Shown here piece by piece: positions 4,801 through 34,764 of a stretch of 34,764 nucleotides of DNA. The stretch comes from Deltaproteobacteria bacterium. Its GTDB lineage: Bacteria > Desulfobacterota > GWC2-55-46 > DRME01. A model generated the notes under the pieces. That model had not been told where the DNA came from. It saw nothing but the letters and a program-made list of their open reading frames with translations, and searched no databases. Both the position numbers and the translations under genes were made by a program. Position 1 is the first letter of the stretch; every line of letters begins with the position of its first letter. The stretch lies in assembly GCA_011375175.1 (NCBI GenBank), contig DRME01000062.1:1-34764 (forward strand). The letters are read 5' to 3'.

Positions 4801-5378
4801 GGAGCGGCCAGTTCGAGTTCATGGAGGAGGTGAGCAAAAGGCTCCGGATCATAGTGCCCGTAACGCTTGCGCTCATCTTCCTGCTCCTCTATCTCAACTT
4901 CGGCTCCCTCGCCGACACCCTAATCATAATGCTCAGCCTCCCTTTCAGCGTCGTCGGCGGCGTGTGGCTCGTCCACTGGCTCGACTACGACATGAGTGTG
5001 GCCGTGGGCGTCGGTTTCATCGCCCTCGCGGGCCTGGCCGCCGAGACGGGCGTGGTGATGCTCGTCTACCTCAACCTCGCCTGCGAGAGAAGGAAAAAAC
5101 AGGGGAGGATGCGCACGAGCCGGGACCTCGCGGAGGCCGTTGTCGAGGGCGCGGTCATGAGGATAAGACCGAAGGCGATGGTGGTGAGCTGTCTTCTCCT
5201 CGGACTCCTTCCCATCATGTGGTCGACCGGTGTGGGCTCAAGGCCCATGCAGCGCATGGTCGCGCCCATGGTGGGCGGGCTCGTCTCGTCCGCCGTCCTC
5301 ACGCTCGTGGTGATCCCGGCCGTATACGTCATGGTCAAGGAGACTCTCCATAATCGCTCCGGGGGGAACTTTCTGTAG
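1887..5378 (+). CDS. cusA: CusA/CzcA-family heavy-metal RND efflux pump
   Basis: This is the inner-membrane, proton-driven RND transporter that pairs with the preceding adaptor; translation is coupled through a 4-base GTGA overlap. Family signs are the N-terminal helix with PLDAVPDLSDTQV, the proton-relay helix VDAAVVLVENTHK, twelve hydrophobic segments in two sets, and a C-terminal RPKAMVVSC region. At 1163 residues it is longer than typical CusA (about 1040-1050). The excess is a charged, helical-looking block at about residues 635-745, in the first porter region, just before the MPNWWLMPIETR segment that normally follows the conserved KPxxxW stretch. The last residues (GGNFL, stop TAG) are encoded by an interspersed repeat that overlaps the 3' end. 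Substrate is inferred to be Cu/Ag from the Met/Cys-rich partner. Confidence 0.93.
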   Translation: MTRLVIEWCLRNRLLVCAVSLLLAFLGLWSLSRIPLDAVPDLSDTQVIVSTEWMGRDPQTVEDQVTYPLATTMLAVPGVSDVRGYSFFGQSFVYIIFEDGTDIYWARSRVMEYLNQARRDLPEDATPTLGPDATGLGWVFIYTVEDRSNRHDLGALRALQDFYIRYQLLGVPGVAEVASVGGAVRRYEVTVDPDKLLSYAIPLSDVVSAVRKSNNDFGGGVMELAETEFMVRGKGYIKGVRDLENVVVRAAAQGAPVLLRDVAAVGIGPDTKRGVAEKDGRGEVVAGIVVARHGANALEVIEGVKEKIGKIAPGLPEGVVIEPAYDRSGLIYRAVATLEEKLIEEIAVVALVTLLFLRHARSALVASVTLPLGVLVSFIVMKAMGLGANIMSLGGIAVAVGAMVDAAVVLVENTHKHLERAGAAGEAPKRRRLVLKASMEVGPALFFSLLVITVSFLPVFALEGQAGRLFKPLAYTKTFAMAAAALTAVTVVPVLVFLFVKGDIPPEKSNPLSRLLVFLYRPVIAVALRFRKTVVAAAALALVVTYIPYSRLGGEFMPPLQEGDILYMPTTVPGLSVAEATRTLRIQDGLLKGFPEVESVLGKIGRATTPTDPAPLNMVETHVALKPEERWPERIIEKGFIAGIAREMLALLKERGLAQEAPLEESALQVERKCRWRLNMWIREEMLRGRGLPSIKRELAARLGDEVSSDLVAYLEAAGHLGAASPAEARALAGAYGIEGPVPLRRTSFEELTKEEMDRVVSIPGMPNWWLMPIETRIGMLTTGMKGLVGVKIRGADLRELERIALEVERVLAGVPGTLSVSAERAMGGHYLDIELDRLELARYGLTVEDVQEVVESAVGGRNVTRTVEGRYRFPVNVRYPREMRDDPEKLERILVAAPDGTLIPLGQLATITLGDGPPVIRSENGLLLANVPVDIERGLDIATYVKRAQAAIDRAVEDGGIGLPPGYYMEWSGQFEFMEEVSKRLRIIVPVTLALIFLLLYLNFGSLADTLIIMLSLPFSVVGGVWLVHWLDYDMSVAVGVGFIALAGLAAETGVVMLVYLNLACERRKKQGRMRTSRDLAEAVVEGAVMRIRPKAMVVSCLLLGLLPIMWSTGVGSRPMQRMVAPMVGGLVSSAVLTLVVIPAVYVMVKETLHNRSGGNFL

Positions 5379-5404
5379 AAGGGCCATAGGCCCACGTCTC
5401 CCCC
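5361..5404 (+). repeat. Palindromic boundary repeat, long type A, overlapping the cusA stop
   Basis: GGGGGGAACTTTCTGTAGAA is followed by the inner hairpin GGGCC-ATA-GGCCC and closing CCCCC. It is the inverse of the copy at 5751-5797 and supplies the last codons and stop of cusA. No terminal AATCAGAG repeat is seen on this copy. Confidence 0.75.
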
Positions 5405-5432: not shown

Positions 5433-5506
5433 GGCTGTACCGGGGGTTCGGGCCGCAAAGGCGTAAAAGGATCCCGCCTGGCGCGGGCCGAACCCCCGGT
5501 ACAGCC
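5433..5506 (+). repeat. Variable-arm hairpin repeat, family E, copy E1
   Basis: A perfect 19-bp stem pairs 5433-5451 (starts GGCTGTACCGGGGG) with 5488-5506. The interior has the family core GGGCCGCAAAGGCGTAAAA and ends GGCGCGGGCC. A nested AGGCG/CGCCT stem is present; the matching stem in E2 is GGGCG/CGCCC, a compensated base-pair change. No T-run follows, so it is not a standard intrinsic terminator. Confidence 0.8.
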
Positions 5507-5720: not shown

Positions 5721-5734
5721 AATAATCTTGCGGC

Positions 5735-5834
5735 AACTCTGATTCATTACCCTGGGGGGAACGTGGGCCTATGGCCCTTCTACAGAAAGTTTCCCCCAGG
5801 GTAATTAATCAGAGTTTCCTTAATCAGAGCTTCC
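5735..5834 (+). repeat. Long type A palindrome with terminal repeats
   Basis: AACTCTGATT (5735-5744) pairs with AATCAGAGTT (5807-5816), enclosing CCCTGGGGG/CCCCCAGGG arms and the inner GGGCC-TAT-GGCCC hairpin. The right end is duplicated in tandem: TTAATCAGAGTTTCC is followed at once by TTAATCAGAGCTTCC. It looks like a short non-coding transposable or REP-like unit without a coding capacity. Confidence 0.8.
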
Positions 5835-5846
5835 TCATTAAGTATA

Positions 5847-5929
5847 CGTGGCGGTCCCCGGAAGGTTCGGGCCGCAAGGGCGTAAAAAACCCCGCCCGGC
5901 GCGGGCCGAACCCTCCGGGGACCGCCACG
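5847..5929 (+). repeat. Variable-arm hairpin repeat, family E, copy E2
   Basis: 24-base arms (5847-5870, beginning CGTGGCGGTCCCCGG, and 5906-5929) are complementary with one mismatch. The interior core GGGCCGCAAGGGCGTAAAA is nearly identical to E1, while the outer arms are unrelated to those of E1. An inner GGGCG/CGCCC stem is present. It lies in the probable leader of the Rrf2 gene. Confidence 0.8.
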
Positions 5930-6470: not shown

Positions 6471-6546
6471 AGGAAACTCTGATTTATTGCACTGGGGGAA
6501 ACTTTCTACAGAAAGTTTCCCCCAGGGTAATTAATCAGAGCTTCCT
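6471..6546 (+). repeat. Short type A palindrome with both terminal repeats, before coxC
   Basis: AGGAAACTCTGATTTATT (left) mirrors AATTAATCAGAGCTTCCT (right) around a GGGGGAAACTTTCT/AGAAAGTTTCCCCC palindrome with spacer AC. TTTA flanks both GGAA...TTCC ends, a possible 4-base target duplication. It ends 25 bases before the coxC start, immediately before the ribosome-binding site. Confidence 0.8.
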
Positions 6547-20198: not shown

Positions 20199-20425
20199 GA
20201 AAACTCCGATTTATTACACTGAGGGAACCTTTTTGTAAAAGGGTCACAGACCCACGGTTCCCTCAGACTCCCTCCAAAAACTTTTTGTTTGCTCTTCGAG
20301 CCGCGTTGGTTTTCATGATCGTCCAAGGAAGCGAGGTTCTTTAGCCCAAGTTAAAAGTCTTTGAAGGGGGTCTGGGGGAAACTTTCTTCAGAAAGTTTCC
20401 CCCAGGGCAATTAGTCAGAGCTTCC
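20199..20425. repeat. Complete composite boundary repeat of about 227 bp with both terminal repeats
   Basis: Left end GAAAACTCCGATTTATT and right end AATTAGTCAGAGCTTCC are imperfect inverted repeats. Inside are module C (CTGAGGGAACC/GGTTCCCTCAG, 20219-20266, with inner GGGTC-ACA-GACCC), a slot of about 75 bases between CAAAAACTTTTT and TTAAAAGTCTTT, and short palindrome A (20372-20405, 16-bp perfect arms, spacer TC). The slot here has no long palindrome, unlike the other copies. It fills the gap between ubiB and ubiE and looks like a MITE. Confidence 0.8.
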
Positions 20426-22661: not shown

Positions 22662-22839
22662 CCGGGGGAAACTTTCTGAAGAAAGTTTCCCCCGGCCCCC
22701 CTTCAAAGACTTTTAATACGAGTTGGTTTCCCCCTGTTTTGCTTGGCAAAACAGGGGGAAACCAACTCGCGTTAAAAGTCTTTGGAGGGAGTCTGAGGGA
22801 ACCGGGGGTCTGTGACCCTTTTACAAAAGGTTCCCTCAG
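22662..22839. repeat. Composite boundary repeat with variable-arm stem D1
   Basis: In order: short palindrome A (22662-22695, CCGGGGGAAACTTTCT and its complement, spacer GA); AAAGACTTTTAA (22705-22716); a perfect 24-bp stem with a 3-base loop (22719-22742 with 22746-22769, outer bases CGAGTTGGTTTCC, tip TGTTTTGC); TTAAAAGTCTTT (22772-22783); and module C (22793-22839). The palindrome ends 25 bases before the phasin-like start codon. Terminal repeats are missing. Confidence 0.85.
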
Positions 22840-27318: not shown

Positions 27319-27332
27319 GGGCCGCGGGGAGT

Positions 27333-27363
27333 CGAAAGTCTTTGAAGGGGGGCCGGGGGAAAG
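27333..27363 (+). repeat. Boundary-repeat fragment
   Basis: GAAAGTCTTTGAAGGGG leading into GGGGGAAA is one edge of the composite repeat (slot flank plus start of palindrome A) without its partner. It lies between hpt and the FHA gene. Confidence 0.5.
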
Positions 27364-28813: not shown

Positions 28814-29026
28814 CTGAGGGAACCTTTTTGTAAAAGGGTCATGGACCCACGGTTCCCTCAGACTCCCTCCAAAAACTTTTAACGCCCTGGGGATCACCCC
28901 GATTTTGCCAAGCAAAATCAGGGTGATCCCCAGGGAATTAAAAGTCTTTGAAGGGGGTCTGGGGGAAACGTGGGCCTATGGCTCTTCTACAGAAAGTTTC
29001 CCCAGGTGCAATAAATCAGAGTTTCC
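28814..29026. repeat. Composite boundary repeat with variable-arm stem D2
   Basis: In order: module C (28814-28861, inner GGGTC-ATG-GACCC); AAAAACTTTTAA; a 24-base-arm stem (28885-28908 with 28912-28935, outer bases CCCTGGGGATCACCC, tip GATTTTGC, one C-A mismatch, 3-base loop); TTAAAAGTCTTT (28938-28949); long palindrome A (28959-29005, inner GGGCC-TAT-GGCTC); and the terminal repeat AATAAATCAGAGTTTCC, which abuts the PP2C stop codon. It occupies nearly the whole 317-base gap between the FHA and PP2C genes; no gene was seen there. Confidence 0.85.
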
Positions 29027-34649: not shown

Positions 34650-34764
34650 CTGGGGGAAACTTTCTGTAGAAAGTTTCCCCCAGACCCCCTTCAAAGACTT
34701 TTAATTCCCTGCGGTTCATCCCGATTTTGCAAGCAAAATCGGGATGAACCGCAGGGCGTTAAAA
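34650..34764. repeat. Composite boundary repeat with variable-arm stem D3, cut by the window end
   Basis: Short palindrome A (34650-34683, 16-bp perfect arms, spacer GT), then AAAGACTTTTAA (34693-34704), then a perfect 24-bp stem (34707-34730 with 34733-34756, outer bases CCCTGCGGTTCATCC, tip GATTTTGC, 2-base loop AA), then GTTAAAA at the window edge. Stem D3 differs from D2 at three positions in the left arm; each is compensated in the right arm. It ends 25 bases before hemA. Confidence 0.85.

Follow-up and report, generated by a model that had tools for sequence, protein, structure and literature searches.

Short bacterial MITEs with IS5-group-like ends are high-copy, non-autonomous, intergenic elements that carry terminal inverted repeats (TIRs) and are flanked by 4-bp target duplications of the YTAR type. 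The pneumococcal BOX elements (boxA-boxB-boxC) are modular intergenic repeats with TIRs, target duplications and stem-loops, in which constant ends enclose a variable middle (PMC3049150), while REP and REPIN sequences, associated with RAYT transposases, are dispersed intergenic palindromes that spread within a genome (PMC3116915, PMC2817692). Template switching at inverted repeats is a further process of interest, which is reported to homogenise the arms and invert the spacers (PMC8604942, PMC8794818). No description of the repeat family presented below was found in a search of open-access literature, in which most hits were assessed by title and abstract.

The stretch analysed here (the window, 34,764 nt) is a contig of the genome (G000) of an uncultured Deltaproteobacteria bacterium, a 2.49-Mb MAG in 138 contigs. 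The element at 20199-20425 comprises 227 bp on the forward strand. Imperfect TIRs bound it, and between them lie a C hairpin, an inner stem that encloses a slot of 65 bases, and an A hairpin. The left TIR (20199-20215) reads GAAAACTCCGATTTATT, the family consensus being GGAAACTCTGATTNATT, and the right TIR (20409-20425) reads AATTAGTCAGAGCTTCC. The C hairpin (20219-20266, CTGAGGGAACC...GGTTCCCTCAG) has the 'long' loop form, and together with the A hairpin (20372-20405, CTGGGGGAAACTTTCT..AGAAAGTTTCCCCCAG) it represents diverged versions of one half-module. The inner stem consists of a left arm (20267-20285, ACTCCCTCCAAAAACTTTT) and a right arm (20351-20371, TTAAAAGTCTTTGAAGGGGGT), and the slot between them (20286-20350) is bordered by the CAAAAACTTTT motif, ending at 20285, and by the TTAAAAGTCTTT motif, starting at 20351. 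The motifs, the imperfect TIRs and the C-slot-A order that the initial annotation had described were all recovered in place. RNA fold prediction assigns the element a very low folding energy (z -5.4) and a four-way junction, the arms of which would be the outer TIR stem, hairpin C, the slot-bearing inner stem and hairpin A. Rfam returns no match above the gathering score in the window.

Three further copies in the window, of mixed orientation, differ from the first in their slots. A core copy with the order A-slot-C lies on the reverse strand (22664-22839; left TIR not clear) and holds a hairpin slot of class S2 (22717-22771). A C-slot-A copy with a right TIR (28814-29026, forward strand) holds an S3 hairpin slot (28881-28937) next to an A hairpin of the 'long' form, and an A-slot copy (34650-34764, reverse strand), also with an S3 hairpin slot, is truncated by the contig end, which is the window end. 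DNA folding of the slots alone returns strong hairpins at 22713 (z -11.9) and 28880 (z -8.3), whereas the slot of the 20199 copy, of class S1, is unstructured (z +0.85); the contrast first proposed between its non-palindromic slot and hairpins elsewhere, including the S3 hairpin near 34693, is therefore upheld. The window also contains shorter derivatives, namely a TIR, an A hairpin and a TIR at 6472-6545 (forward strand), flanked by the 4-bp target duplication TTTA, and a TIR, a long-form A-type hairpin and a TIR at 5731-5834 (forward strand), immediately followed by a second TIR end. A diverged A-type half element (5332-5404, reverse strand) and a solo remnant made of the inner stem and the start of the A hairpin (27322-27362, forward strand) complete the set. 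A second abundant palindromic repeat, GGGCCGCAAAGGCGTAAAAAATCCCGCCTGGCGCGGGCC, occurs at 5447-5489 and 5867-5907, is matched 69 times in the 770 kb sampled from G000, and often directly adjoins the elements studied here.

A pattern for the half-module returns 304 + 294 = 598 matches in G000 and none in its reversed control, which indicates roughly 300 elements, and many G000 contigs, that of the window included, start or stop inside an element. Detailed counts refer to 770 kb of stretches, ~31% of the genome. In this sample, 22 of the 52 TIR-bounded elements are flanked by exact 4-bp target duplications (2000 shuffles gave 2.5 on average and 8 at most), which are found with both S2 and S3 elements and are absent at the 20199-20425 copy itself. 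The predominant duplicated 4-mers, TTAA, CTAA, TTAG, ATAA and CTAT, are YTAR-like, and such 4-bp targets and ends presumably resemble those of IS5-group elements. None of 96 element midpoints falls in a called ORF, with ~81% of the DNA coding, and short forms of 76-90 bp, made of TIRs and one A hairpin, recur as at 6472-6545. With TIRs, target duplications, a length of ~200 bp, a non-coding interior, ~300 copies and a mostly intergenic location, the family has the features of a MITE, as proposed at the outset, and behaves as a high-copy non-autonomous MITE-type mobile repeat that inserts with 4-bp duplications in G000.

Mobilisation would require a transposase in trans, for which no candidate was found among the three families searched in G000 (Y1_Tnp, DDE_Tnp_1 and DUF772), in an assembly that may be incomplete. 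RAYT/REPIN membership is ruled out by the lack of Y1_Tnp in G000, and with DDE_Tnp_1 and DUF772 lacking there, no IS5 partner was found. Across the order, DDE_Tnp_1 matches occur in only 4 of 48 genomes and are all weak or partial. Pairs of TIRs inspected by coordinates in the 770 kb as possible long frames around a transposase were each read as two neighbouring short elements. A search for a phage or plasmid origin returned no match, and an integron attC site, considered in view of its R-box motifs, was dropped as a candidate because the copies lie scattered between genes and no cassettes accompany them.

The fate of the slot was followed at ten site pairs of sister species, taken as orthologous from the similarity of the flanks on both sides (identity ~67-92%). 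The frame is kept at all ten, two of the frames containing an additional insert, and the slot differs at all ten; the stem differs at nine, mostly in both arms. At the pair L087/L143, frame and stem are unchanged and the loop is inverted, while at L139/L194 a bulge lies on the opposite side, which corresponds to an inverted slot. A larger interior also differs between species at one orthologous site. Simple vertical decay with identical slots, the outcome that would have spoken against exchange, was looked for at these ten sites and not found. Sites lacking an intact element in some sister species, which the initial annotation had proposed to look for, number two (L059 and L179). At L059, the element is present with different slots in G035 and G009, only a short spacer occupies the site in G015 and G022, and other sequence is found in G027 and G045, that of G027 being another repeat with the ends GGCTGCTCAAAAG...TTTTTCGGCAGCC and that of G045 a diverged version of it. 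At L179, G009 retains a single hairpin in which an A-hairpin arm is joined to a C-hairpin arm, that is, a loop-to-loop deletion.

The stems follow the genome in which they reside. Within a genus of six genomes, stem similarity is 0.63 within genomes versus 0.49 between them, a difference reached in none of 2000 permutations, and at three sites the stems of G045 and of other species are unlike one another (0.2-0.4), each being closer to the remaining copies of its own genome (0.59-0.76). The slot stems evolve in concert. Several loops are tied to their locus and the stems to their genome, so that the two are not always passed on as a unit, and G009 contains many different stems.

Arm matching was also scored within a single genome. 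Relative to their class consensus, the G000 slots show 39 both-arm changes and 19 mismatches (nine A-C, five G-T, five others), and perfect pairing is seen in 56 of 73 slot stems of relatives, the mismatches including seven A-C and three G-T; in these small numbers no excess of G-U over A-C was found among imperfect pairs in either data set. The slot loops of G000 stand in both orientations relative to the frame at ~50:50 (AA 15/TT 14, CAG 16/CTG 13), whereas in hairpins A and C the large loops hold a single orientation (41 versus 1 and 19 versus 1). Arm homogenisation and loop inversion are thus both seen, at orthologous sites as well as inside one genome.

Taken together, the whole is best explained, with a probability that we put at roughly 0.7, by a MITE-type four-way-junction repeat, the slot of which is rewritten by template switching and by copying between repeats. 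A DNA polymerase switching templates across the short-loop palindrome would copy one arm onto the other and flip the loop, and both arms would therefore change together without wobble intermediates. Since template switching would not suffice to give one prevailing stem per genome, copying between repeats is added as the simplest complement: gene conversion or recombination, for which the constant A and C modules may serve as homology arms, would spread the slot stem and thereby produce concerted evolution. Whole-slot conversion alone does not fit because the loops of relatives vary between loci more than the stems do, and loop inversion together with arm matching free of a G-U bias points to the two processes in combination. 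Deletions that resemble excision, and the forms with a single hairpin, probably arise from the same slippage-prone structure.

The repeat extends well beyond G000. The covariance model R1 matches 27 of the 63 genomes of the class that were searched, all in one order and with a patchy distribution, so that an order-wide repeat family is described here. Its core is also found in further families of that order, in Deltaproteobacteria bacterium records of which many are groundwater MAGs. The slot of these relatives likewise forms a hairpin, for the most part AGTTCTTCC-variable-CCCCC-loop, and in 31 of 77 of their elements one or both outer arms resemble the ends of the other repeat noted at L059 (~2.7 expected from shuffles), which indicates that the outer frame around the core differs between lineages. 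Another repeat of ~120 bp, with the ends CAGGCTGCTGAAAAA/CTCAAAAA, is found in relatives at L215 1373-1494, L039 127-248 and L079 5764-5886, and at one site it occupies the position at which sister species have the present element. Slots with long loops of tens of nucleotides in an otherwise conserved GAACAG-type stem occur in G026 (L058, L084) and in JACREV (L083).

The relatives also provide the arguments for a functional hairpin. If we assume that the slot is an RNA or single-stranded DNA hairpin kept by selection for pairing, with ordinary compensatory changes, and that the elements are terminators or 3'-end structures, the very low folding energy would be expected, as would the strong covariation of the slot in relatives: 10 of the 11 main slot helix pairs change on both sides, and none of 500 shuffles reaches the observed value, the structure being taken from the same alignment, so that part of the advantage over shuffled or slid versions is expected. 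Gene context agrees with this explanation in relatives, where by approximate counts, with ORFs from a simple script, elements lie a median of 14 nt behind the adjacent stop codon, with no more than 1 of 68 located between divergent genes. In G000, however, by the same approximate counts, divergent genes flank 22 of 68 element gaps and convergent genes 4, and the copies read show no evident U-run after their hairpins. Stepwise compensation should moreover pass through wobble pairs, whereas few such intermediates are seen and G-T is not commoner than A-C in either data set, nor does it lead one to expect slot or loop inversions at orthologous sites or loops standing equally in both orientations. 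We therefore hold this explanation to be unlikely, although in relatives old, vertically inherited copies may have persisted at 3' ends or been co-opted there, and may have a secondary 3'-end or terminator-like role.

Within G000, the slots fall into the unstructured class S1, that of the 20199 copy, and the near-perfect hairpin classes S2, S3 and S4. By whole-slot scoring, the 108 elements comprise 50 S2, 42 S3, 15 S1 and one S4; both arms of the slot belong to the same class in all 108 and are never chimeric, two S4 being counted when scoring by arm. Of these classes, S1 alone resembles foreign content that is not palindromic. It occurs outside any frame at two places (L101 9320 and L100 3666), a third case being a degenerate frame, and at L101 it follows an apparent tRNA gene and belongs to a short open reading frame. 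The idea that S1 is a coding fragment was set aside, the short reading frame being open in some copies and broken in others. No S2 or S3 arms were seen outside frames in the G000 sample. L125 1119 and L125 18710 are one element viewed from both strands, with S1 and S2 in tandem in its slot. A broader proposal, that the central hairpin is an exchangeable identity tag, its stems being rewritten genome-wide in concert to follow a lineage-specific trans-acting recogniser and its slot also taking up foreign DNA such as S1, appears distinctly unlikely.

The classes could also be old subfamilies, each amplified from its own master copy without exchange between sites. Their discreteness agrees with such a history, as do the frames of S1 copies, which are more diverged than those of S2 and S3 copies, and a nearest-frame test, which reveals a weak link between frame and slot (0.54 versus 0.38) and hence slots that are not fully shuffled. 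Against it, the S2 and S3 frame consensus sequences are practically identical, with about one confident difference in 177 aligned columns, while their slots are unrelated, the stems having only the tip in common. The loop-length variants of A and C are found with every main slot class, and different slot classes occur in closest frames about as frequently as expected. Subfamilies are already contradicted by slots that differ at vertically inherited orthologous sites and by stems that track the genome and not the site, which makes them an improbable explanation. Finally, a stem serving as the recognition hairpin of a lineage-specific protein, such as a transposase or DNA-binding factor whose changes all copies follow, would agree with genome-specific stems, variable loops and arms that nearly always match, but is very improbable given the many different stems of some genomes (G009) and the lack of an identified candidate protein.

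Returning to template switching combined with copying between repeats, the original proposal of a mobile unit whose interior is exchanged while the frame is kept stands in most respects, supported by the 4-bp duplications, by S1, S2 and S3 in the same frame and by the slot differences at every orthologous site. Its notion of a cargo is too strong, since the changes among the S2-S4 hairpins are best explained by arm-to-arm template switching and between-repeat copying, S1 being perhaps an exception. The orthologous copies in sister species constitute a natural record of palindrome rewriting, in which both arms change simultaneously, loops are flipped and copies change in concert across a genome inside a constant frame. 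They allow a direct test of how much of the covariation in DNA palindromes, often taken as proof of a functional RNA, stems from template switching and gene conversion.

The family is best filed with the bacterial MITE-like modular repeats, as a variant. It shares with the IS5-group-like MITEs a short length, high copy number, TIRs, target duplications, an intergenic location and non-autonomy, but differs in its complex interior, a four-way junction that holds an exchangeable hairpin slot, in having no partner transposase found and in a core that also lies inside other TIRs in relatives. With BOX, the likeness is one of architecture alone and covers modules, TIRs, target duplications, stem-loops, intergenic location and a variable middle between constant ends; BOX varies the number of its boxB modules, whereas the single slot of the element changes in sequence and mostly remains self-complementary (PMC3049150). 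Like REP and REPIN sequences, the elements are dispersed intergenic palindromes spreading within a genome, but they are much larger, possess TIRs and target duplications, and reside in a genome without Y1_Tnp (PMC3116915, PMC2817692). With template-switch mutations, they have in common arm homogenisation, simultaneous paired changes and loop inversion; the process is described as a source of mutations in rRNA and protein genes (PMC8794818, PMC8604942), and here it appears to act on a mobile repeat family along with exchange between copies.
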